Origin: Tritrichomonas musculus
Taxonomy: Eukaryota; Parabasalia; Tritrichomonadida; Tritrichomonadidae
DNA: 64,000 nucleotides
Assembly: GCA_039105265.1 (NCBI GenBank)
Contig: JAPFFF010000006.1
Coordinates: 2,046,001-2,110,000 of the forward strand
Reading direction: 5' to 3'
The notes beneath the pieces were generated by a model. It worked only from the letters and a program-made list of their open reading frames with translations. It did no database searches and had not been told where the DNA came from. A program made the position numbers and the translations under genes. Shown piece by piece: positions 3,016-21,142 of the stretch; within the stretch, counting starts at the first letter, position 1; each line of letters starts with the position of its first letter.

Positions 3016-4800
3016 ATGATTGTGGAATTAAACACTGACTCACCAAGAACTGGCATAGCTTCACATTTTCATCCAGCAAATGATACTCCAATATATGAAG
3101 AAGAATTGAAAAAGGTCTATCGTAAACCAATCTTTGGATATGAGCAATTTAACAAGTTCCCAAAGATCTATGTCATATGTCCAGAAGAAGATAAACTTGA
3201 TACAGAATATTATTTTTGTGATATTTGTAAGCACTGTAACAAAATTTCTTCAACGATTAGTAATGTGATCATTCATGCCTCAAAGCATGATAATGAACTG
3301 AAAAAAGAATTAATTAAAGAAAAAGATAGAAAAAGAACAGAAAAAATAGACGATGAATTAAAATTTTTATCTAGCAAAGAATCGAAAACAATTGCAAATT
3401 ATATTCATAAATTTTTTTTATTAAACGGAATTGCTTTTAATAAAATAGAATCAGATGAATTGAAATCATTAACTGCAGATTTAATGAATAGAAAAGAATT
3501 ATCAGATTATGCAGGGATAATTTCAAATAGAATTGAAGCAAAGATATTCTCAGATCTGAGAAATGCAAGCCATATTTCGGCAAGTTTCGATGGCTGGACT
3601 GGAATAGACACCCAACATTACCTGGGAGTAACAATTAGATGTATAATTAATAAATCTTTAAAATGGTTTACAATTGGATTTTCTCATATCGAAGAAATAC
3701 ATGCAACTTCGGTCGAAATTGGATATTTACTTACTAAATCATTTAGAGAATTCGGTATAATAGGCAGAGTTCGAAGCGTTGTGTCTGATTCGCATTCTGT
3801 AATGACATGCGCTGCCGTTAATATAGATGTTTGGGGATGTGAATGCATTTTGCATATGCTCCATACCTTATTAGGTTCTTTTGTTAATGCTGCAAAGCCT
3901 TTGTTGACTCCGATTTTCAATCTTGCTTCATATCTAGCCAATTCAACAAAATGGACCGCTTTTGCAAAAAAACGAAACATTTGTTCAATACCGTCATTTA
4001 CGGCGATAAGATGGTCATCTATGTATGCTACATTTAAAGCTATCAATTCAGCAAAACCTTACATAATTGAATTCTCAGCATCAGAAAAAAAAGATGAACA
4101 AGAAAAATTCCAAATTGATTATTCAGTTGTAACTGACTTGATAAAGCCTTTAAAGATATTTAAAAACTGGCTGGAAGGTTTCGAGTCAGATGATTTTGGA
4201 AGCCAATCGGATTTTCTAAATGGTTGGTACGCAATAAATAAATCTTTTCAGGATTTAACAGATCCTCGATGGAATGATGCTAAGAATTGCATGAAAGAAA
4301 AAAAAAATGAATTAGAAAAAAGGCATAAAGAAACATTTGAATATCTCACAATCTGTGCAATTCTTAATCCGAATACTTGTCTCAAGCGTATTCCTGAAAA
4401 ATCTAAAAGAAATGCTTTGAATAAAATAATAAAAGAAATGCAAATGGTACCAAAAAAAGAGGAAAACGAAGATGATCAAACAGATGAACCTTTAACTAGA
4501 GATGGATTCAAAGCATTAAATTTATCCGATCCTTTAGATCAGTTGTATACACGAGTTTGGGAATGTTCCGTCAATTTATTCGATTATTGGATTAGTAAAT
4601 TGAAAGGAAAAACATATTCTCTTGCAGATGTTGCACTTAATTATTTATCGCGATTGGCAACATCAGCCTCAACGGAAAGACTATTTTCTCGCTCTAGACG
4701 AATTCAAACTTTTGAGCGGGTTCGCTTATTGCCAGAAACATTACACAATTTAGTTATAATCGCTGGAAATTATGATATTGCAACGCAATGCTTTTATTAA
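3016..4800 (+). CDS. hAT-family transposase (intact)
   Basis: Cut-and-paste DNA transposase, acting in the nucleus on the ends of the surrounding element. The frame is open a little upstream from a TTG, but the first ATG gives 594 residues, normal for hAT. An N-terminal BED-like zinc-finger region has CDIC followed by two His (IIHASKH, about residues 71-95). The catalytic core follows: first acidic residue in FDGWT (D192), second in VVSDSHSV (D258), then the CECILH/HTL segment and an IRW motif. The C-terminal hAT dimerisation region has ATSASTERLFSRSRRI with the catalytic Glu at 554. All expected acidic residues are present and there is no stop or frameshift, so the protein may be active. The transposase sits on the strand opposite to the second gene of the element. 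Confidence 0.95.
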   Translation: MIVELNTDSPRTGIASHFHPANDTPIYEEELKKVYRKPIFGYEQFNKFPKIYVICPEEDKLDTEYYFCDICKHCNKISSTISNVIIHASKHDNELKKELIKEKDRKRTEKIDDELKFLSSKESKTIANYIHKFFLLNGIAFNKIESDELKSLTADLMNRKELSDYAGIISNRIEAKIFSDLRNASHISASFDGWTGIDTQHYLGVTIRCIINKSLKWFTIGFSHIEEIHATSVEIGYLLTKSFREFGIIGRVRSVVSDSHSVMTCAAVNIDVWGCECILHMLHTLLGSFVNAAKPLLTPIFNLASYLANSTKWTAFAKKRNICSIPSFTAIRWSSMYATFKAINSAKPYIIEFSASEKKDEQEKFQIDYSVVTDLIKPLKIFKNWLEGFESDDFGSQSDFLNGWYAINKSFQDLTDPRWNDAKNCMKEKKNELEKRHKETFEYLTICAILNPNTCLKRIPEKSKRNALNKIIKEMQMVPKKEENEDDQTDEPLTRDGFKALNLSDPLDQLYTRVWECSVNLFDYWISKLKGKTYSLADVALNYLSRLATSASTERLFSRSRRIQTFERVRLLPETLHNLVIIAGNYDIATQCFY

Positions 4801-4898: not shown

Positions 4899-5789
4899 TA
4901 TACTGATCGACATGATTGCAGCAATGTATCTTCCATACTGATCGACATGATTGCAGCAATGCATCTTCCATACTGATCGACATGATTGCAACAATGCATC
5001 TTCCATACTGATCGACATGATTGCAACAATGCATCTTCCATACTGATCGACATGATTGCAGCAATGCATCTTCCATACTGATCGACATGATTGCAGCAAT
5101 GCATCTTCCATACTGATCGACATGATTGCAGCAATGCATCTTCCATACTGATCGATATGATTGCAACAATGCATCTTCCATACTGATCGACATGATTGCA
5201 GCAATGCATCTTCCATACTGATCGACATGATTGCAGCAATGCATCTTCCATACTGATCGATATGATTGCAACAATGCATCTTCCATACTGATCGACATGA
5301 TTGCAGCAATGCATCTTCCATACTGATCGACATGATTGCAGCAATGCATCTTCCATACTGATCGACATGATTGCAGCAATGCATCTTCCATACTGATCGA
5401 CATGATTGCAGCAATGCATCTTCCATACTGATCGACATGATTGCAGCAATGCATCTTCCATACTGATCGACATGATTGCAGCAATGCATCTTCCATACTG
5501 ATCGATATGATTGCAACAATGCATCTTCCATACTGATCGATATGATTGCAACAATGCATCTTCCATACTGATCGATATGATTGCAGCAATGCATCTTCCA
5601 TACTGATCGACATGATTGCAACAATGCATCTTCCATACTGATCGACATGATTGCAACAATGCATCTTCCATACTGATCGACATGATTGCAACAATTCATC
5701 TTCCATACTGATCGACATGATTGCAGCAATGCATCTTCCATACTGATCGACATGATTGCAACAATGCATCTTCCATACTGATCGACATG
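4899..5789. repeat. 35-bp minisatellite, about 25 copies, inside the hAT
   Basis: A head-to-tail repeat whose unit contains TGATCGACATGATTGCAGCA and GCATCTTCCATAC. Copies differ mainly at two positions (GACATG/GATATG and GCAGCA/GCAACA), so the array is young or homogenised. Because 35 is not a multiple of three and the unit has no minus-strand stop in any frame, all three minus frames stay open for about 800-890 bp and encode the same 35-residue repeating peptide in rotated phase. It lies between the transposase stop and the 3' end of the element. I treat the long ORFs here as products of the repeat, not as genes. Confidence 0.95.
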
Positions 5790-8764: not shown

Positions 8765-8780
8765 GTGAAATGATAAGTTT

Positions 8781-8996
8781 TATCCTATATATAATAAGAG
8801 TTCATTTTGAACATAGGCTTAAAAAAATCAGAATAATATCAGTATATCAAATCTATCATTAAAAAAATCCTATCTCTAATATATAAAGAGTTTTTATTCA
8901 AAAATGATTAAAATATAATATTTTTTAACTTTTTGAGAGTGAAAAGGTGGATGAAAAAAAATCACTTCATATCTTTGATTTGATATTCTCTATTTA
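8781..8996. repeat. Left 216-bp direct repeat flanking the satellite
   Basis: Nearly identical to 12154-12369 in the same orientation, with only a few base differences. It ends at GATATTCTCTATTT, exactly where the 61-bp satellite begins. No LTR-retrotransposon features (reverse transcriptase, primer-binding site) lie between the two copies. Confidence 0.9.
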
Positions 8997-9007
8997 CCAA
9001 TTTAGCC

Positions 9008-12000
9008 TTCCACCTGCGGCTATCGCTTCTCAGCTGCAGGTGGAAGTAAAGAAATAAGGAAACCAATTTTCCACCTGCGGCTGAGCTGCGACAGCTGCAG
9101 GTGGAAAATTACTATTTACCAATTTAGCCTTCCACCTGCGGCTGAGCTGCGACAGCTGCAGGTGGAAAATTACTATTTACCAATTTAGCCTTCCACCTGC
9201 GGCTGAGCTGCGACAGCTGCAGGTGGAAAATTACTATTTACCAATTTAGCCTTCCACCTGCGGCTATCGCTTCTCAGCTGCAGGTGGAAGTAAAGAAATA
9301 AGGAAACCAATTTTCCACCTGCGGCTGAGCTGCGACAGCTGCAGGTGGAAAATCACTATTTACCAATTTAGCCTTCCACCTGCGGCTGAGCTGCGACAGC
9401 TGCAGGTGGAAAATCACTATTTACCAATTTAGCCTTCCACCTGCAGCTATCGCTTCTCAGCTGCAGGTGAAAGTAAAGAAATAAGGAAACCAATTTTCCA
9501 CCTGCGGCTGAGCTGCGACAGCTGCAGGTGGAAAATTACTATTTACCAATTTAGCCTTCCACCTGCGGCTGAGCTGCGACAGCTGCAGGTGGAAAATCAC
9601 TATTTACCAATTTAGCCTTCCACCTGCGGCTATCGCTTCTCAGCTGCAGGTGAAAGTAAAGAAATAAGGAAACCAATTTTCCACCTGCGGCTGAGCTGCG
9701 ACAGCTGCAGGTGGAAAATTACTATTTACCAATTTAGCCTTCCACCTGCAGCTGAGCTGCGACAGCTGCAGGTGGAAAATTACTATTTACCAATTTAGCC
9801 TTCCACCTGCGGCTATCGCTTCTCAGCTGCAGGTGAAAGTAAAGAAATAAGGAAACCAATTTTCCACCTGCGGCTGAGCTGCGACAGCTGCAGGTGGAAA
9901 ATTACTATTTACCAATTTAGCCTTCCACCTGCGGCTGAGCTGCGACAGCTGCAGGTGGAAAATTACTATTTACCAATTTAGCCTTCCACCTGCGGCTGAG
10001 CTGCGACAGCTGCAGGTGGAAAATCACTATTTACCAATTTAGCCTTCCACCTGCGGCTATCGCTTCTCAGCTGCAGGTGAAAGTAAAGAAATAAGGAAAC
10101 CAATTTTCCACCTGCGGCTGAGCTGCGACAGCTGCAGGTGGAAAATTACTATTTACCAATTTAGCCTTCCACCTGCGGCTATCGCTTCTCAGCTGCAGGT
10201 GGAAGTAAAGAAATAAGGAAACCAATTTTCCACCTGCGGCTGAGCTGCGACAGCTGCAGGTGGAAAATTACTATTTACCAATTTAGCCTTCCACCTGCAG
10301 CTGAGCTGCGACAGCTGCAGGTGGAAAATTACTATTTACCAATTTAGCCTTCCACCTGCGGCTATCGCTTCTCAGCTGCAGGTGAAAGTAAAGAAATAAG
10401 GAAACCAATTTTCCACCTGCGGCTGAGCTGCGACAGCTGCAGGTGGAAAATTACTATTTACCAATTTAGCCTTCCACCTGCGGCTGAGCTGCGACAGCTG
10501 CAGGTGGAAAATTACTATTTACCAATTTAGCCTTCCACCTGCGGCTGAGCTGCGACAGCTGCAGGTGGAAAATCACTATTTACCAATTTAGCCTTCCACC
10601 TGCGGCTATCGCTTCTCAGCTGCAGGTGAAAGTAAAGAAATAAGGAAACCAATTTTCCACCTGCGGCTGAGCTGCGACAGCTGCAGGTGGAAAATTACTA
10701 TTTACCAATTTAGCCTTCCACCTGCGGCTATCGCTTCTCAGCTGCAGGTGGAAGTAAAGAAATAAGGAAACCAATTTTCCACCTGCGGCTGAGCTGCGAC
10801 AGCTGCAGGTGGAAAATTACTATTTACCAATTTAGCCTTCCACCTGCGGCTGAGCTGCGACAGCTGCAGGTGGAAAATTACTATTTACCAATTTAGCCTT
10901 CCACCTGCGGCTGAGCTGCGACAGCTGCAGGTGGAAAATCACTATTTACCAATTTAGCCTTCCACCTGCGGCTATCGCTTCTCAGCTGCAGGTGGAAGTA
11001 AAGAAATAAGGAAACCAATTTTCCACCTGCGGCTGAGCTGCGACAGCTGCAGGTGGAAAATCACTATTTACCAATTTAGCCTTCCACCTGCGGCTGAGCT
11101 GCGACAGCTGCAGGTGGAAAATCACTATTTACCAATTTAGCCTTCCACCTGCAGCTATCGCTTCTCAGCTGCAGGTGAAAGTAAAGAAATAAGGAAACCA
11201 ATTTTCCACCTGCGGCTGAGCTGCGACAGCTGCAGGTGGAAAATTACTATTTACCAATTTAACCTTCCACCTGCGGCTGAGCTGCGACAGCTGCAGGTGG
11301 AAAATTACTATTTACCAATTTAGCCTTCCACCTGCGGCTATCGCTTCTCAGCTGCAGGTGAAAGTAAAGAAATAAGGAAACCAATTTTCCACCTGCGGCT
11401 GAGCTGCGACAGCTGCAGGTGGAAAATTACTATTTACCAATTTAGCCTTCCACCTGCGGCTGAGCTGCGACAGCTGCAGGTGGAAAATTACTATTTTCCA
11501 ATTTAGCCTTCCACCTGCGGCTGAGCTGCGACAGCTGCAGGTGGAAAATTACTATTTACCAATTTAGCCTTCCACCTGCGGCTGAGCTGCGACAGCTGCA
11601 GGTGGAAAATCACTATTTACCAATTTAACCTTCCACCTGCGGCTGAGCTGCGACAGCTGCAGGTGGAAAATTACTATTTACCAATTTAGCCTTCCACCTG
11701 CGGCTGAGCTGCGACAGCTGCAGGTGGAAAATTACTATTTACCAATTTAGCCTTCCACCTGCGGCTATCGCTTCTCAGCTGCAGGTGGAAGTAAAGAAAT
11801 AAGGAAACCAATTTTCCACCTGCGGCTGAGCTGCGATAGCTAAAGGTGGAAGTAATTACTTAAATGTACCATTTCAAACTTCCACCTGCAGCTATCGCAG
11901 TTTAGCTGCAGTTGGAACTAATTACGCGAATTAAACTTCCACCTGCAGCTAAACTGCGATAGCTTTAGGTGGAAGTAATTACTTAAATGTACCATTTCAA

Positions 12001-12075
12001 ACTTCCACCTGCAGCTATCGCAACTTAGTTGCAGTTGGAACTATTTACGCGAATTAAACTTCCACCTGCAACTAA
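9008..12075. repeat. 61-bp hairpin satellite, about 46 canonical units plus degenerate end units
   Basis: Each unit contains an inverted pair, TTCCACCTGCGGCT and AGCTGCAGGTGGAA, so it can form a 12-14 bp stem. Two unit types of the same length alternate irregularly. Type A has a GAGCTGCGAC loop and a tail ending ACCAATTTAGCC. Type B has an ATCGCTTCTC loop and a tail ending AGGAAACCAATT. The core of type B resembles the reverse complement of that of type A. Canonical units run to about 11853; from there to about 12075 are diverged units (tails AATTACTTAAATGTACCATT and AATTACGCGAATTAA). No gene is seen. The array is much more G+C-rich than its surroundings. Confidence 0.95.
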
Positions 12076-12153
12076 AAGTTTTAAATATTTTTTTATTTAT
12101 ATTATTTTTCTTTTAGTTTTTATTTGTTCAAAATGTTTTTTTTTTTTTTACAT

Positions 12154-12369
12154 TATCCTATATATATTTAAGAGTTCATTTTGAACATAGGCTTAAAAAA
12201 ATCAGAATAATATCAGTATATCAAATCTATCATTAAAAAAATCCTATCTCTAATATATAAAGAGTTTTTATTCAAAAATGATTAAAATCTAATATTTTTT
12301 AACTTTTTGAGAGCGAAAAGGTGGATGAAAAAAAATCACTTCATATCTTTGATTTGATATTCTCTATTT
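12154..12369. repeat. Right 216-bp direct repeat flanking the satellite
   Basis: Partner of 8781-8996. To its right the sequence continues into CTGCCCTGGCCAAG and then GAAGATCAA-rich DNA that resembles segments near 13770 and 19930, linking the repeat to the flanks of the Helitron-type gene. Confidence 0.9.
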
Positions 12370-12813
12370 TCTGCCCTGGCCAAGCGAAAAAAGAGCATTT
12401 CAAAAACATCATAGACAAAAAATGAAGTACCTGATAGTTTTAAAAGTTTATAAAACGCCACAATTTAACTGATGATCATAGTAAACCATAGAAGAAGATC
12501 AATGATCCAAACAGAAGAGGATCAAGATTCAACAGAAGAAGATCAAGATAACATATTTGTAATATTTTTACTTTCAATATTACTTTTATTTGCAATTTTA
12601 TAAAAAAAAGTTTATTGTTATTATAAATGATTTATATGTTAATAAAAAAAACACCTTTTAATTTTCTTTATTATTTTACTCTTTTTTAAAGATGATATTT
12701 ATGCATATATTTTTGTGAAAACTCATTGATTTTAATCTTTTAATTTTGAAAGGAGAACTTTCAAAAATTTAATTTTGTTAGAACTTATAGAAAAAGTTAA
12801 ACTTTTTTTTTAA

Positions 12814-13140
12814 ATGGATATTTTTGAAGAACAAATAAAAAAAGCTTCAGAAATTATTTACGAAGCATTAAAAGCAAATAATGGTAACTACTACAATGGT
12901 GTTTCTTTTGATGATGAAAAAAATATCTTAATCGATTTGAATATTTTTTTTTTAGAAACAGATTTGGATGTTTATCAATTATTTGCATTTGATATACGGT
13001 TTAAATTAACCACAATTTGTAGCCTGGCTCAAATAACAAAACATTTTCCAAATATGGATTCAAATCATAATTATATCACTATTTCGAAAATGGGATTTTT
13101 TGGTGATAAAATAAATGAATTAAAAAATGCAACTCAATAA
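12814..13140 (+). CDS. Small hypothetical protein upstream of the Helitron-type gene
   Basis: An ATG-started frame of 108 codons ending in TAA followed at once by AATAAAAT-type sequence. The product is mixed acidic/hydrophobic (EEQIKKASEIIYEALKANNG, then DLNIFFLETDLDVYQLFAF), with no transmembrane helix, signal peptide or recognised motif. Its upstream DNA (about 12300-12800) resembles the upstream DNA of the Helitron-type gene (about 13555-14260), sharing AAAACACCTTTTA and GAAGATCAAGA.AACATATT, so it may be a second gene of the same element. Codon use matches its neighbours. Confidence 0.5.
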   Translation: MDIFEEQIKKASEIIYEALKANNGNYYNGVSFDDEKNILIDLNIFFLETDLDVYQLFAFDIRFKLTTICSLAQITKHFPNMDSNHNYITISKMGFFGDKINELKNATQ

Positions 13141-14263
13141 AATAATATTTTATTTTATTTTATTTTCATTCTTTTAATATATATATATATATGTTTATTT
13201 ATTTTTATTTTTTAATTATTTTTTTATTTTAATTATAATATTTATTATATATATATATATATATATATTCTAATTTATTAAATAAATTTTCTAAAAAAAA
13301 GAAGATAATTTTATTTAAAAAGTTTAACCTTTTGTATTAAAACTGAAATTATTATTTCAAAAAGTGGCTACTCCTTATTCATTAAATATTTTGAATATTA
13401 ACTTAAATTGCTTTAATGTTATTTATTTTAAAAATGGATATTACATTTGATATCTATTAAATTTTTGCAAAGAAAAAAGTGGGTTAATTTTATATTATTC
13501 ATTACTAAACTTTTTGAATATAATTTGGTCAATACAATATTTACATAGTTTTATTATCAAAAAGTTTCATAAACCAAAATAACACTTCATATCTTTTTTG
13601 TTATATAATGCTCTTATGCCTCTTGACAAGGCAAAAAAAAAAAAAAAAATCATTTACTGGATAAAAAGATTCACGGCATGATATAATCCACTTACATCCT
13701 GTAAATGCAATTGCATATTATATAATAATATATAATGTGCAATTGGGAAATTTGAATTTCCAAACTTAGAGAGAAGATCAAGAAAACATATTTGATTCAA
13801 AGAAACATTACCCTCTAATAATTACTAAATATCGATCTAAAAGATTAGAAAGAAATAATGATAAGTTAGATCAAACTTTTGTTTTGATTGTATTAGTAAA
13901 AATTAAGATATTGATTCTTGATTATACAATGTAAAAGATTAATAAATAAGTTAATTGATCTCTAATGATTATTAGTTAATCACGAATATTGATAGAAATT
14001 GTATATTTTTGCTATTTTATTTTTCATTTTTAAATCTTTTTGAATTAAAATCTTATATAAACTTTTTGAATTAATCTGACACCGTAGCCACTTAATTGAG
14101 ATCGTGGCCACTTATAGACACTACTATAATTAAAAAACACCTTTTATTTTATTTAATTTTATTTTTTTTTTTTTTTTTTTTTTTTTTTTGAATTGATAAA
14201 TGGCCTTCGTATTTTGAATATTAAACGGTTATTGAAAAACATTTTTTTACATCACTTAAATAG
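13141..14263. other. Leader region of the Helitron-type gene, no gene
   Basis: A+T-rich DNA with TA microsatellites (about 13177-13192 and 13242-13268) and long T tracts at 14160-14190. It includes a diverged duplicate of 12300-12800 and the words TTCAAAAAGTGGC and ACTTTTTGAA. No supported ORF. Confidence 0.5.
14252..14257 (+). promoter_or_regulatory. Initiator TCACTT of the Helitron-type gene
   Basis: A perfect match to the trichomonad initiator consensus, six bases before the ATG. Very short leaders are usual in trichomonads. This supports the chosen start. Confidence 0.6.
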
Positions 14264-17200
14264 ATGTCTGGCATAGCAAATTTAGGACACTCGTGTGGCT
14301 ATTCAACAATTTTACAATTTATTGTTCGATTATCAAAATTCAAAGATTTTGTTCTCAAAAATGATTTTCAAACAGACGACAAATTTTTTTATATAAAAAA
14401 TTTTTTTATTCAATATTTTGAAAATTCAAGAAACAATGTCAATTTTTCTCAAATAATTGATCCTGCCGAATTGTACATAAATCTAAATGTTGATACAAAT
14501 AACGATAACATTATAGAAATATTAGATTTTTTTATTGATTTATTTAAAAAGAGAATTGGAAATTATGATCAAAATTATATCGATTTTAAAATTTTGAATG
14601 CAAATAATGAGGATTGTGTTTTCAAATCACATTACACCATTAAATACGATAAAGATAAAAATTTAAATCAAAATTTTATTGAAACATCAAGAATTTTTGC
14701 AGATTTTATATTTTCAATTCCAATTATTGCAGTTTTTGAAATTCAAAATCCAAAAAACTTTATTCCTGAGGATATGATAAATATATCTGACAGTGATGAC
14801 AATTTTTTTAATTATAAATTAAAAGGTTTTTTTTTATTTAAGAGAAATATATCACATTGGGTATTTGCTTTACGTTCAAAAAATTTTTGGCTCTTATTTA
14901 ATGATTCAAAGATAACTTTGTTTGATGATAATGATACATTTTTTAATTCAGTTGATAATTTTGAAAAAAATTGTGTGATTTACATCAAAGAAACTTTTTA
15001 TGACGATACATCAATTTTTGATAATATATTTCAATGTTCTATTGAAAATATATCTCAATCGTCAGATATTTATATTCAAAATACAGATGAAGAAATATCT
15101 GATTGTTCATTTGAATATGACAGTGATACTTTCATTTCATCTCCTTTAGAAAATATAAAAACGGACACAGATAGTATAAATTATTATGGTTTTATATGTC
15201 AAAAAAAAAATAAATTTATATTAGAGGATATAGATTTGCCTTTAATAGAAAATGAATTATCTTTACTATTTGTAAGTTATTTCTTACCTTTTCATCCAAT
15301 TTTATATAATTATGTCAAAAATACAAATGATTTCAGTTATGATCTGTTTTTACAATATTTTAAAATAAGCAACGATGATATTTATGAATTTAGTCAACTA
15401 CATAATTATTATGGAATTTTAAATCGTGAAAATTTCCCAACTTTTGTCAAAATAGCAAAAAAACTCCAAATAAATTTTCAAAAAAATAATGTTGTTAACA
15501 ATATTTTTAATTATCATATTCACAATTATGCTATTCCATTAGATGGAAGATTTATCGAATTATTGTACTATGGAAACATATCAATTTTTGAATTTAATTT
15601 CGCAAAAAGTTTATTTTACAACAATGACTTTATTCAAAATTTGCCTAAACCGATTTTATCGTTAGAACGTATTCCTCAAGAAAAATATGTTGAATATGAA
15701 GTTGATAATAATTTAAATATTTTAAAAGAGTATGTTCGTAAAATTCCAAATTTTATCAAAGAAATGGATTTCCATAAGACAGACTATATAAATCAAAACT
15801 TATCATTGATTTATCTTGGAGGTAATATCAAATACAAAAATATGGGTACATCCTCAGGAAAATTATATGGCACAACTTATTCAAAAATAAGGCGAATTGA
15901 TTCTGGATTTATTCTTTTATCAAATAATGTTGAAAAATTGCCAAATACATTAAATGATATTAAAGATGATGTCGCATTATTATTCGATTATTTAAAAGAA
16001 AACAATCCCTTATATGCCGATTTCATTCCTCCAAAAAGTCAAGAAAATTTAAATGATTGGATATTCACCGTAATAGATAATTTCAGATCAAAAAGTGGAA
16101 TTGTAATAACAGATCAATATGATAATAATAATTATATGTTTAAAAGAATTAACGGGGTTAAATTAATTAGAGTCGCGGTTGAATCACAAAAGGATGGAGT
16201 TAAAACCTTATATGTAACCTTTGAAGAAGCTCTAGCTTTAATGTTTCCTATATTATTTCCAAATGGACCTATTCCACCAATAGAGGGGAAAACATTCCGA
16301 GAGAAAGCTAAAAAACTATTATCAATTCAATATTTTAGAATTGGTTTAGTTGCATGTTCAATGATTCTCTATATTTTTGATATAATTGTTAGAGATGAAA
16401 GTTTAACCTATCAGCATTGTGTTCAAAAAGTTCGTGTTCAGAGGCCAAATGATGAAACAGGTATAGGAAATGATTTTAAAATCAACTCAAGAGATCCTTC
16501 CTTTCACTTATATTGGTTGCAAAAAAGCACTGAAGTAAGTGCAATGATAGAGCAATTTGGACCTCCAGATTTAATGCTAACATTGACATTTAACAATAAA
16601 TGGGAAGAAGTCAAGTCATTCATTGATAATAATTATATGAAATACACCAATGAAAAATATAAATTCCTGATTCAATTTGCTCCTGTGGAAGAAATGATGT
16701 TTTGGAAATATAGATTCAAGGAAGTATTTAAAAATGGATTTAATAATTTATTCAATTCTGCTGGATTGGGAAATTGCACCCATTTTTTTTGGAGGCTGGA
16801 ATTTCAAGGAAGAGGTGCACCACATGTTCATTCATTAATATGGCTTGAAAACATGCTGAATATTGAACAAATAGATAAGAATATTTTTGCTGAATTGCCT
16901 CAGGAATTTTGTACAGAATTACATTCAAAAATAAAAGGATATATGATACATAACTGCGTTGGTTGTTTCAAAAAAGGGAGAGTTTGTAGATTCAATTTCC
17001 CAAAAAAGCCAGTACTTTTCACACATTATAATGATGAAGGATTTCTTGAATTGAAAAGAGATGAAAAAAACGATAGAACAGTTGATTTTTGTCCTTTATT
17101 AATTGCACAAACAAATTCTCATACTCATGTTAATGTTCTGAGATCAGAAGAGTTGCCATTTGGCTCTACCAATGGAATTAATTACGTCTTAAAATACAAT

Positions 17201-19690
17201 TTCAAACCTGAGCCAAATATGATAATTGATGGCAAAAAAATTGACGATAAACTAAGATTTAGAGCAAGAGTTGTTTCAGTTGAAGAAGCAGTTGCAAGAA
17301 TATTTTCATTTACTTTTTCAGAAAAAGATATTGGTTCTATCTTTATAGACACAGTTCCGCCATCATTACGAACAGCAAAAGCTAACAAAAATGGAAAACA
17401 AAAACAGATCGACATAATTGAAAAATACTTTAATAGACCAAGTTATTTAGATAGATTAACAATTTTAGAGTATTTTTCATTATATGACATTAATTCAGCA
17501 GGAAATTTAAGAATAATTGAACCACCAGCTAAAAACACATTAGCTCGCCCCAAAAATTCTTTGGCCCCAGGATCAAAGTGGGAATTAGAGAATCTAAATT
17601 TGGATATGTCAATTGAATTAGGTTTTCTTTATAAAAGCGAAAGATTGCCCAATGCAACTCGCTTAAAAATAAAGAAGTTGGCAAATCCAAGAATAGTTAC
17701 TTTTAAGAACTTTGATTTCTTCCAGCAAGAGGTAAATTTTTATTATCATTATTTATTAATATCAGGTTGCTGGAGAAGTGAAGAGGATATGATGCTAAGC
17801 TTCTCCGATCCATTGGATGCAATTAAGTATCATGGATTATGTAAACCTTTCTTCCCAGAAATAAATCCTGGAATAGGATTATATTTAATATATCATATTC
17901 AATTGCTCAGATATACAGAAACGCATTTAAAGAAGATGATTTCAAATTTTATGAACCAAGGAGTAGATACATCTGATTTATTGAAAGTTTTAAACAATTA
18001 TCGACCTCCAATTCAAAGAATAAAAGATAGAGTTGAACTTTGCATGCAATATATTAATGACATTAAATCAGTTTTAATGGAAGAGAAACCTGTTTCAAGA
18101 AATTCTTTTGATGTTTCAAATGACATTTTAAAAAAATATATATGCATTGATTTCACAGAAAAGGAAAAAGAAGAGTCAAAGAATCTTTTTGAATCAAATT
18201 ATCCACTTTTAAACGAACAACAAAAAGCAATTGTCGATAAAATCATTACAGAAATTCATTTAATTACAAATTACTGCATTCTTGGAAAAGCAGGAACAGG
18301 AAAATCATTCTTGATTAAAACTTTAATGGCGTATTTTAGATTCAATAATATTCCTTATGGCGTTACTGCATCTACAGGAATTGCGGCAGCGTTAATCCAT
18401 GGACGTACTCTTCATTCTTTATTCTCTTTATTTTCAAAAGACGATGATTTGTGCTGTGGATTAACACTTTCAGATGTTCAGGGAAAAGCATTGACCAATA
18501 TGAAATTTTTATTTATTGATGAAATTACAATGTTAAGCAAAAAGGTTTTCGATGTTATTGATAAAAAACTTCGTTATCTAATGATTGAAAAATATGGAAA
18601 TTCAAAGGATGTTCCTTTTGGAGGCTTAAAATTAATTTTAACAGGTGATTTAGCTCAGGTACCAGCGGTATTAAAAACATGTTTATCAGATATTGATGAA
18701 GCAAAAAATATGTTCATGTCAATGGAAAATTTTGATTCTTTCCAATTTGCTACACTTGATATAAACCAACGGCAAAAAGATGCTGATGAAGATTTTATAT
18801 ATCTTTTAAATGAAGTAAGAGATCACCAAAATAATTGTAAATTATCTGATAAATCATTGCAATTACTTAAATCTATATTTATTGAAGGTGGAATGATAAA
18901 AAATACAATTGACCAAGTTGTTGATTTTGTTGGTGATGATGGATTAACCGTATTTTATACAAATGATATGCTAGATATTTATAATGATCTTTTATTGAAC
19001 AAATATCATTGCGATTCAATAAAAGTTTTCGACGGTTTGTTCATAAAGAAACCACAGATTTCTTATTTACACGGAAATAATAGGAGCAATTTAACCAAAT
19101 TTATTCATCCAAGTGATAAAGACATTTCTTATATGAAATATTATTTAAGGAAAAATTCTAATTTAGTTCCTGTTCACTTAAAAATAGCAATTGGATGTAA
19201 AGTCATGCTTTTGAAGAATATAGATAGTTCAGCAGGTTTAGTTAATGGCAGAATTGGGTTTGTTGAAAACATTATGGAACATGGCAAGAATGGCTCAGAT
19301 TCACCAATATTATTAATTAAATTTAAAAATTTAACTGATGATGGCAATGAAGATTCTGTGGAAATAATTAGACATTTGATCTGCGAAACCGATTTACCAT
19401 ATGGTGCAAAAATATCATTTTATCAATATCCAATTAAACTGTGTTATGGTGTTACTGCTCATAAGGTACAAGGACAAACTCTGAAAAAAGTAGCCATTAA
19501 TATATCTAAAGATGCTTTTGCTCATGGATCTTTTTATGTTGCTCTAAGTAGAGTTAAAAATTTAGCAGATGTCAGATTATTTGGCCCAGAAAAGTTTCCA
19601 GAAGAGGGACCATTATTCCATAACAATGGTGTTATTCAAGCTATTGGAAAAGAAATTCTAAATAATGAAGAGGATAACACGAATGATTAA
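14264..19690 (+). CDS. Helitron-type Rep/helicase with an N-terminal ubiquitin-specific-protease-like domain
   Basis: A 1808-residue protein. Residues 1-230 resemble a C19 (USP) deubiquitinase: Cys box GIANLGHSCGYSTILQ with C11, and His box SHWVFALRSKNFWLLFNDS with H198 and N213/D214. The domain is shorter than usual, and the oxyanion-side Asn of the GNTC motif is His. Residues 240-560 are unassigned. The Helitron N-terminal/Rep region follows, with the HUH pair in GAPHVHSLIW (H854, H856) and the tyrosines of NYVLKY (Y974, Y978). A PIF1/RecD-like superfamily-1 helicase occupies the C-terminus: Walker A GKAGTGKS (1341-1348), Walker B FLFIDE (D1419/E1420), GDLAQVP and a late motif TAHKVQGQT, ending with YVALSRVKN. 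The family nicks and unwinds DNA for rolling-circle transposition. The frame is uninterrupted and every catalytic residue I can check is present. The USP assignment rests on the two boxes being aligned and correctly ordered. Confidence 0.9.
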   Translation: MSGIANLGHSCGYSTILQFIVRLSKFKDFVLKNDFQTDDKFFYIKNFFIQYFENSRNNVNFSQIIDPAELYINLNVDTNNDNIIEILDFFIDLFKKRIGNYDQNYIDFKILNANNEDCVFKSHYTIKYDKDKNLNQNFIETSRIFADFIFSIPIIAVFEIQNPKNFIPEDMINISDSDDNFFNYKLKGFFLFKRNISHWVFALRSKNFWLLFNDSKITLFDDNDTFFNSVDNFEKNCVIYIKETFYDDTSIFDNIFQCSIENISQSSDIYIQNTDEEISDCSFEYDSDTFISSPLENIKTDTDSINYYGFICQKKNKFILEDIDLPLIENELSLLFVSYFLPFHPILYNYVKNTNDFSYDLFLQYFKISNDDIYEFSQLHNYYGILNRENFPTFVKIAKKLQINFQKNNVVNNIFNYHIHNYAIPLDGRFIELLYYGNISIFEFNFAKSLFYNNDFIQNLPKPILSLERIPQEKYVEYEVDNNLNILKEYVRKIPNFIKEMDFHKTDYINQNLSLIYLGGNIKYKNMGTSSGKLYGTTYSKIRRIDSGFILLSNNVEKLPNTLNDIKDDVALLFDYLKENNPLYADFIPPKSQENLNDWIFTVIDNFRSKSGIVITDQYDNNNYMFKRINGVKLIRVAVESQKDGVKTLYVTFEEALALMFPILFPNGPIPPIEGKTFREKAKKLLSIQYFRIGLVACSMILYIFDIIVRDESLTYQHCVQKVRVQRPNDETGIGNDFKINSRDPSFHLYWLQKSTEVSAMIEQFGPPDLMLTLTFNNKWEEVKSFIDNNYMKYTNEKYKFLIQFAPVEEMMFWKYRFKEVFKNGFNNLFNSAGLGNCTHFFWRLEFQGRGAPHVHSLIWLENMLNIEQIDKNIFAELPQEFCTELHSKIKGYMIHNCVGCFKKGRVCRFNFPKKPVLFTHYNDEGFLELKRDEKNDRTVDFCPLLIAQTNSHTHVNVLRSEELPFGSTNGINYVLKYNFKPEPNMIIDGKKIDDKLRFRARVVSVEEAVARIFSFTFSEKDIGSIFIDTVPPSLRTAKANKNGKQKQIDIIEKYFNRPSYLDRLTILEYFSLYDINSAGNLRIIEPPAKNTLARPKNSLAPGSKWELENLNLDMSIELGFLYKSERLPNATRLKIKKLANPRIVTFKNFDFFQQEVNFYYHYLLISGCWRSEEDMMLSFSDPLDAIKYHGLCKPFFPEINPGIGLYLIYHIQLLRYTETHLKKMISNFMNQGVDTSDLLKVLNNYRPPIQRIKDRVELCMQYINDIKSVLMEEKPVSRNSFDVSNDILKKYICIDFTEKEKEESKNLFESNYPLLNEQQKAIVDKIITEIHLITNYCILGKAGTGKSFLIKTLMAYFRFNNIPYGVTASTGIAAALIHGRTLHSLFSLFSKDDDLCCGLTLSDVQGKALTNMKFLFIDEITMLSKKVFDVIDKKLRYLMIEKYGNSKDVPFGGLKLILTGDLAQVPAVLKTCLSDIDEAKNMFMSMENFDSFQFATLDINQRQKDADEDFIYLLNEVRDHQNNCKLSDKSLQLLKSIFIEGGMIKNTIDQVVDFVGDDGLTVFYTNDMLDIYNDLLLNKYHCDSIKVFDGLFIKKPQISYLHGNNRSNLTKFIHPSDKDISYMKYYLRKNSNLVPVHLKIAIGCKVMLLKNIDSSAGLVNGRIGFVENIMEHGKNGSDSPILLIKFKNLTDDGNEDSVEIIRHLICETDLPYGAKISFYQYPIKLCYGVTAHKVQGQTLKKVAINISKDAFAHGSFYVALSRVKNLADVRLFGPEKFPEEGPLFHNNGVIQAIGKEILNNEEDNTND

Positions 19691-19750
19691 CTAATATACT
19701 AAAAATTTATTTATCATTATGCTATTATATGTTAACAATATATTGGAATA

Positions 19751-19847
19751 CAGTCAACACATTTCAAATCGGCCCTTTTTAACACTTTTAAAGGTCATTA
19801 TATGGCCAAATATCAGTTAAAATGGCCGATTTAAAATGTACAGACTG
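19751..19847. mobile_element. 97-bp TA-flanked mini-MITE
   Basis: Ends CAGTCAACACATTTCAAATC and its near inverse GATTTAAAATGTACAGACTG, bounded by TA on both sides (19749-19750 and 19848-19849), as for Tc1/mariner-type elements. Inner inverted words CGGCC/GGCCG continue the match. It lies 60 bp after the stop of the Helitron-type gene. Confidence 0.65.
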
Positions 19848-19929
19848 TATTTATAAAGGATAATTTTTTAGAATTTTTTTTAGAACTCATTTGATATAAT
19901 GAATAAGACACTTTTCGAGGGAAGCTCAA

Positions 19930-20250
19930 AGGTGGATGATCAAGAAGATCAAGAAGATTCATTACCGAAGAAAATTAAAATTCCTAACTGAAGAAGATCG
20001 AGAAGATTCATTACAAAAGACGATAAAGTAGATTTTCAGCAGGATACGATCATGAAGATTCCCAACAGAAGACAATCAAGAAGATTCATTACATAAAAAG
20101 ATTAAAATTCCTAACAGATGAGGATCAAATAGATTCCCAATAGAAGAAGATCATGAAGATTCTCTAAAGAAGAAGAAGATCAAGAAGATTCATTACAGAA
20201 GACGATTAAGATGATTCATTACCAAAGAATATTCTCAACTGAAAAATGAG
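19930..20250. repeat. Degenerate purine-rich repeat downstream of the Helitron-type gene
   Basis: At least seven imperfect copies of a word like GAAGATCAAGAAGATTCATT, alternating with CCCAACAGAAGA-type segments. Related words occur at 12490-12560 and near 13775. It is not a usable reading frame. Confidence 0.7.
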
Positions 20251-20376
20251 TTCATTAAAAAATTTGACATTAAAATAAATTTATTTTTTTATTTAACAAA
20301 TTTTTATCTTAGATTTAGATTAAGAATAACATAAAATTATATATTATAAAGGAAAATGAGTATAAATGCTTCTAGA

Positions 20377-20403
20377 CACTTTTTGAGCGAAGCTCAAAAA
20401 GTG
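20377..20403. other. Perfect 12-bp stem, 3-base loop hairpin
   Basis: CACTTTTTGAGC, loop GAA, then GCTCAAAAAGTG. A diverged version (CACTTTTCGAGGGAAGCTCAAAGGTG) lies at 19911-19936. It could be the 3'-terminal hairpin of the Helitron or a transcript-end structure. It is followed by GCGTCCCTTG, which is not a canonical CTRR end. Confidence 0.5.
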
Positions 20404-21142
20404 GCGTCCCTTGTAATAATATAAGAAATATATTTCTTTATTATTATTTAAAAATATATTTTAAATTAAGACATAAAGTATTATTATCAATAAATTATCA
20501 TATAATATTAAATATTGCATGAATCAAATAATTATACTTTATTCCAGAAATTAAATTTCATTATTTTATTATTTCGATAATTATATGTACAATTGTTTTT
20601 TCCATATATTTTTTTAAAAAAATGATTGCATATTGTTTTATTTGATTTTTTTAATTTAACGTCTTTTTTATTTTAATCTTCCCCCTTACTTATGAATTAT
20701 TTGAATTGATTCATAGAATATTTTATATTAACAATATAATATGAATTACCAATATATCTTGAAGATAATTAAAATATTTGGCTTTTTTGTTTATTATTAT
20801 GATTTAATTAGATATGTAATCAGTAAATAATTGTTGTATATTTCTATATGCAGATAAAAAAAGCTCCGGATTAATTATTATTTAAAAATCAGGAATTACT
20901 TGTCAATATATGCCGAAAAAAAGCATTTTTTGAATATTTATAGCAAGAAAATTTTCATAAATCGTCTGATTTTTGATACAAATACAACAATGATGATGTT
21001 ATCAATACAAAATCAAATCAAAATCAAACCATTGATGTTATTTTTCAACTCTTTATTGAATAATTCATAAATGATATTTTGCTGTTTTGATAATATCTTT
21101 ATTTATTGATAATAATATAATATTAATAAATAAAAAATCAAT
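20404..21142. other. Intergenic, nothing identified
   Basis: About 740 bp of A+T-rich DNA between the Helitron region and the 3' end of the transporter gene. No ORF, repeat or RNA gene is seen. Confidence 0.5.

Follow-up and report, generated by a model that had tools for sequence, protein, structure and literature searches.

The closest described systems are deubiquitinase-bearing transposons from animals and from a trichomonad. The available part of PMC9741609 describes animal Helentrons and Helitrons with OTU or herpesvirus-tegument-type (VTD) deubiquitinases and reports ubiquitin cleavage in vitro for VTD. Its authors suggest that the Helitron VTD keeps proteins required for transposition from being degraded by the proteasome. 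The portion of PMC2836005 (2010) available to us lists a Trichomonas vaginalis IS5-type transposase (XP_001314237.1) with Peptidase C19, the ubiquitin-specific protease (USP) class, and proposes a role of the ubiquitin and SUMO pathways in transposition. Here, we analyzed a 64,000-nucleotide stretch of Tritrichomonas musculus contig JAPFFF010000006.1 (GCA_039105265.1, positions 2,046,001 to 2,110,000; "the window"), which contains a Helitron encoding a Rep/helicase protein (RepHel). The most probable reading, in our view, is an autonomous Helitron that was copied recently and whose RepHel has at its N terminus a diverged USP-class deubiquitinase acting in cis for the transposition complex.

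Like the OTU and VTD Helitrons in the part of PMC9741609 at hand, the window protein joins a RepHel to an added putative cysteine deubiquitinase, here of the USP class; the initial annotation of this DNA had already stated that other Helitrons and Helentrons carry OTU or other peptidases. Helentrons have a C-terminal apurinic-type endonuclease; in the window protein, Pfam gave no match to Exo_endo_phos at E ≤ 1, although a diverged copy could escape. With XP_001314237.1 it shares a USP-class domain on a DNA-transposon enzyme, but that protein, as presented in the available portion of PMC2836005, has Transposase_11 and no HUH Rep/helicase and is not rolling-circle. The initial annotation knew of no described C19 fusion. 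For Helitrons, no USP- or C19-bearing example appeared among the titles listed from the open literature (a search that for the greater part did not extend to subscription journals, preprints, or Repbase reports), but the T. vaginalis transposase is a C19 fusion in print.

The open reading frame, its coordinates, the Cys and His boxes, and the HUH, YxxKY, and helicase motifs all lie where they had been placed from the sequence (Table 1). The HUH stretch LEFQGRGAPHVHSL comprises residues 845 to 858 and includes HVH, while the helicase Walker A is at residues 1341 to 1348. We assume from the family that YVLKY supplies the catalytic tyrosines of Rep. A Rep with HUH and tyrosine motifs is combined with a helicase in one protein, the arrangement by which Helitrons are recognized.

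N-terminal to these domains, GIANLGHSC (residues 3 to 11), SHWVFAL (197 to 203), and WLLFND (209 to 214) provide N6, C11, H198, and N213/D214, residues that are ordered and spaced as in USPs and that align with their counterparts in other USPs. Profile-profile comparison matched the window domain to USPs over the full domain with 96.6% probability, with shuffle and other-family controls. OTU, VTD, and Ulp1, each represented by few reference sequences (3, 4, and 1, respectively), scored 9.9, 13.3, and 17.0 in hhalign, within the shuffle range of the USP profile. In a scan with gapless matrices built from Helitron C-terminal USPs, the Cys-box score was reached by none of 20,000 shuffles and the His-box score by 19. 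Each box ranked first among the 112 proteins scanned, which were 118 proteins minus the 6 with a C-terminal USP. BLASTP without composition correction aligned the window protein with L035, a Helitron with a C-terminal USP, at 54.3 bits over residues 3 to 250. Structure prediction and superposition on a USP had been proposed in the initial annotation; an alignment-guided model found its structural matches in the USP fold, with residues 114 to 150 poorly modeled. Its neighbors USP1, USP7, USP46, USP12, and USP21 share the fold of the model and the Cys box, His box, and catalytic order of the window domain, but they are 12 to 16% identical to it, are longer, and have no transposon attached. The proposed fusion of a USP-like domain to a Helitron Rep/helicase was borne out by the profile-profile comparison, the model, and relatives, and the assignment of residues 1 to 250 as a putative, very diverged USP (C19) domain is supported.

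The most informative relative is P0019, a protein of 1812 amino acids (aa) from a 5,915-bp contig of a public assembly, which is 64% identical to the window protein over residues 480 to 1808. Identity is 61 to 67% per block from residue 480 on and about 40% (99 of 245 aligned positions) over residues 1 to 250. N6, C11, H198, and D214 are unchanged in P0019, and N213 is replaced by Asp; an Asn/Asp swap at such a position is usual in USPs. At 40% identity, random retention would keep all four catalytic sites about once in 40. We take the retained sites as modest support for catalysis.

Several results weigh against this assignment. In Pfam, UCH matched the whole protein at residues 3 to 40 only (20.1 bits, E 5.5e-4). 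When residues 1 to 260 were the query, as the initial annotation had advised, UCH reached 23.1 bits (E 6.6e-5), slightly under the cut-off of 23.9. P0019 has no UCH match in Pfam at E ≤ 0.5, and NCBIfam showed no USP for the window protein. Plain hmmsearch with a seven-sequence profile of C-terminal Helitron USPs found no match in the window protein at E < 5, and a profile of the window protein plus P0019 matched no PDB chain at E ≤ 1. Residues 1 to 480 as a protein query found no homologue among 5,023 candidates; P0019, which came to light with residues 480 to 1808 as the query, was missed although it has the N-terminal region in common with the window protein (265.7 bits, residues 1 to 473). 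Composition-corrected BLASTP against L035 retained only the Cys half (33.9 bits). The window-type domain had no match, in profile comparison, to the diverged USPs of two other Helitron proteins, P0099 and P0100. The alignment behind the model already contained recognized USPs, so the model is not independent, and a single-sequence fold of residues 1 to 260 was discarded at a predicted local distance difference test score (pLDDT) of 41.9.

If the domain is a USP, C11 would attack the ubiquitin C-terminal bond. H198 and N213/D214 would assist, and N6 would help to form the oxyanion hole, a role that we assume by analogy with USP7. Because the domain is covalently part of RepHel, we guess that it would act in cis. 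Its targets might then be RepHel itself, host proteins assembled where the transposon DNA is nicked and replicated, or the covalent Rep-DNA intermediate, which would otherwise be tagged by host repair and removed; loss of ubiquitin from these would spare the transposition complex proteasomal or repair-linked removal. Deubiquitination of RepHel or its partners is the most likely activity, the substrate and linkage type being guesses. Elsewhere among Helitrons, OTU, VTD, Ulp1-type, and further USP domains appear to serve this need.

USPs occur on other Helitrons of this genome, for which 22 Helitron_like_N matches were listed and 13 regions examined. L029 (504-6314, minus strand), which corresponds to P0002 in the protein collection, has an intact 1,937-codon frame that encodes Rep and helicase and, at the C terminus, matches UCH with 78.4 bits. 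UCH also lies behind the helicase in L039 (97.1 bits), L035, and L033, the frames of which are broken or shorter. In a six-frame scan, USP profiles matched 7 of 20 sources at E ≤ 0.01, namely, the window, L029, L033, L035, L038, L039, and, in part, L054; the window was matched only by the profile that contains it, and the other USP profile itself includes L039 and P0002. Six of the 17 L029 relatives in the protein collection have UCH (P0002 and P0004 to P0008), in P0004 to P0008 at the C terminus with 90 to 125 bits. P0003 and P0009 have no UCH match yet lie within the C-terminal-USP clade. This second clade (L029, L033, L035, L038, L039, P0002, and P0004 to P0008) resembles the window protein in joining a RepHel to a USP but differs in the C-terminal position and far stronger matches of that USP, and L029 and the window protein share about 23% identity. 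The initial annotation had proposed to look for the same N terminus in other trichomonad Helitrons; among the Helitrons compared here, P0019 has it, whereas the other USPs are mostly at the opposite protein end.

UCH was found in 2 of the 100 listed relatives of the window protein. P0099 has it before Rep (77.8 bits), and P0100 has it at the C terminus behind a Ulp1 domain (40.3 bits); by eye, both have the Cys and His. In P0100 (residues 1780 to 2255), a Ulp1-type protease directly adjoins the USP domain. According to the precomputed Pfam list, the nearest tree rows of P0099 and P0100 carry OTU. The same list is the source of a VTD label for P0066, for which a fresh scan gave no VTD at E ≤ 0.01. 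The N-terminal domains of P0025 and P0034 were not counted as USPs, since their two-sequence profile stood out too little from shuffles (22.6 against a shuffle maximum of 21.6, n = 60). These domains (P0025 residues 226 to 560 and P0034 residues 236 to 580) contain a Cys-box-like DPFCAxTxxCSIL and a His-box-like SHYISVIKK and may represent a further papain-like protease.

It is unlikely, in our view, that the window domain keeps a USP fold without cleaving ubiquitin and now works as a module that binds ubiquitin or other proteins. Such a state has a precedent in L029/P0002, an intact element of the other clade in which Ser replaces the catalytic Cys and Asn the His of the C-terminal USP, so catalysis is not universal across copies. 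The strong divergence of the window domain and its poorly modeled stretch would also fit. However, the catalytic residues are kept in both the window protein and P0019, and P0004 to P0008 and L039 retain their Cys and His. The L029/P0002 domain is itself probably a pseudo-enzyme on a transposon.

We regard it as very unlikely that the domain cuts its own protein to release Rep/helicase from the N terminus, in the manner of viral papain-like proteases. The terminal position in a long multidomain protein and the single YLGG of the window RepHel (residues 517 to 520) would suit it. Against it, P0019 has no GG within its first 800 residues, which led us to drop YLGG as a cleavage site; moreover, the USP is N-terminal in some Helitrons and C-terminal in others, and USPs prefer ubiquitin C termini.

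There is little to recommend the idea that the element merely carries along, without benefit, a USP fragment captured from the host. The genome is USP rich, with at least 138 UCH matches (138 of 271 candidates scored), a large set for one genome. Helitrons do capture host gene fragments, as the available part of PMC6431247 describes. The domain, however, is in the same frame and intact in two near-identical copies, its catalytic residues are also in P0019, and USPs occur in separate Helitron clades. We give almost no credence to another papain-like fold or a chance likeness of two motifs, which would explain the subthreshold Pfam match and the failure of plain profile searches but not the controlled full-domain profile-profile match or the fit of the model to USP structures.

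We placed the USP-bearing proteins on a quick, unrooted Rep-helicase tree of 35 rows, with Shimodaira-Hasegawa-like approximate likelihood ratio test (SH-aLRT) support only. USP rows fall in four places, and presence or absence requires at least five changes, a count that on an unrooted tree treats gain and loss alike. Sister lineages hold OTU or nothing recognized. That the clades with N-terminal and with C-terminal USPs simply descend from one USP-bearing ancestor was rejected on this tree by the approximately unbiased test (p-AU 6e-67), and USP domains may have been transferred between Helitrons. What would be new is the USP on Helitrons, its occurrence on separate branches and at either protein terminus, and its very diverged N-terminal form. 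We see an even chance that USPs are recurrent and exchangeable parts of Helitron replication proteins, gained on three to four branches at either end, and that deubiquitination is a general requirement of eukaryotic rolling-circle transposition, satisfied convergently by unrelated proteases. The presence of USPs on several Helitron branches suggests that interference with ubiquitin helps such elements spread. Helitrons were already known to carry deubiquitinases of two unrelated classes, and the addition of USPs, on several branches and at either terminus, turns an oddity into a pattern. The claim that host ubiquitination limits rolling-circle transposition is testable. The element is young, and the USP domain is small enough for expression and assay.

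Table 1. Features of the Helitron and its RepHel in the window (window coordinates)
Feature	Coordinates	Strand	Basis or remark
Whole Helitron element, 11,636 bp	8779..20414	+	Comparison of two copies; final T maybe target site
Element 5' end, TTTATCC...	8779..8995	+	Repeated 5'-end matches in genome
Array of ~61-bp palindromic repeats	8990..12076	+	Tandem repeat rows
Second copy of 5' end, 97.7% identical to first	12150..12369	+	Inside element
108-aa open reading frame, no family	12814..13140	+	Inside element
RepHel gene, 1808 aa, intact frame	14264..19690	+	ATG at 14264, stop ends 19690
USP (C19-like) domain, residues 1-250	14264..15013	+	
Cys box, residues 3-18, including N6 and C11	14270..14317	+	Pfam, motif search, matrix scan
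His box, residues 197-214, including H198 and N213/D214	14852..14905	+	Motif search, matrix scan
HUH Rep domain, residues 740-859	16481..16840	+	Pfam Helitron_like_N, 65.3 bits, above cut-off
YVLKY, residues 974-978, candidate catalytic tyrosines of Rep	17183..17197	+	Motif search
PIF1 helicase, residues 1316-1520	18209..18823	+	Pfam PIF1, 106.7 bits, above cut-off
3' terminal hairpin CACTTTTTGAGC-GAA-GCTCAAAAAGTG, then GCGTCCCTTG	20377..20403	+	

The limits of the element were taken from its second copy at C1:1486613-1498247 (minus strand), which is 99.98% identical, with one mismatch and one gap. Unrelated sequence flanks both copies, and no target duplication was seen by eye. In the 193-Mb genome, residues 1 to 260 occur at two loci, C6 (the window) and C1:1491984-1492763, both in 1,808-codon frames. 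Since the two copies are nearly identical, the element is young. It also belongs to a young family, because all 40 listed matches to its first 217 bases (40 of 93 candidates scored, both known copies included) are 99 to 100% identical and start at base 1 or 2. At the other end, 35 of the 44 listed matches to the last 155 bases stop at window base 20414 or 20413 (40 of 331 candidates scored).

The hairpin has a 12-bp stem and lies about 10 bases from the 3' end of the element, and it is the same or nearly identical at the ends of L029, L033, L035, and L039. A hairpin near the 3' end and the lack of a target-site duplication are both Helitron traits. The ends read TTTATCC and CCCTTG (CCCTTA in L033), and the next base is T in all seven in-register ends (the window, the C1 copy, L029, L033, L035, L039, and L055). 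Canonical Helitrons have 5'-TC and CTRR-3' ends in an A-T site; by its termini, therefore, the window element is not a canonical Helitron-1. In L045, L047, and L048 as well, the 5' end is followed by repeats of the 61-bp type. At least one of the copies with this 5' end, L048, lacks the RepHel gene, since it runs through the array to a hairpin within 3.2 kb. With a palindromic array and a second 5'-end copy inside, the window element appears composite and looks like a fusion of a nonautonomous and an autonomous Helitron. The 108-aa open reading frame was found only in the two element copies within this genome (2 matches, 4 candidates), and a Pfam scan of it gave nothing near the cut-off.

Other Helitron pieces were seen elsewhere in the genome. 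Five decayed, equal-scoring pieces (C6:8199, C23:4459, C616:7897, C668:9154, and C706:11369) lie no more than 12 kb from contig coordinate 1 and are possibly a subtelomeric repeat. The two longest parts of the C6 piece (L040) are 98 to 99% identical to the window RepHel, and a third is 84% identical. At the N terminus of two further Helitron Rep frames, L030:1884-5771 (plus strand) and L031:2366-7174 (minus strand), lie leucine-rich repeats of the BspA type (PF13306; 147 and 157 bits, respectively), which are otherwise known from surface proteins. Such repeats and the many USP genes are compatible with a trichomonad host, as the initial annotation had labeled it. Upstream of the element, the window holds a hAT-type transposase at 3016 to 4800 (Dimer_Tnp_hAT, 30 bits), with 25 copies of a 35-bp repeat in an array behind it at 4900 to 5789.
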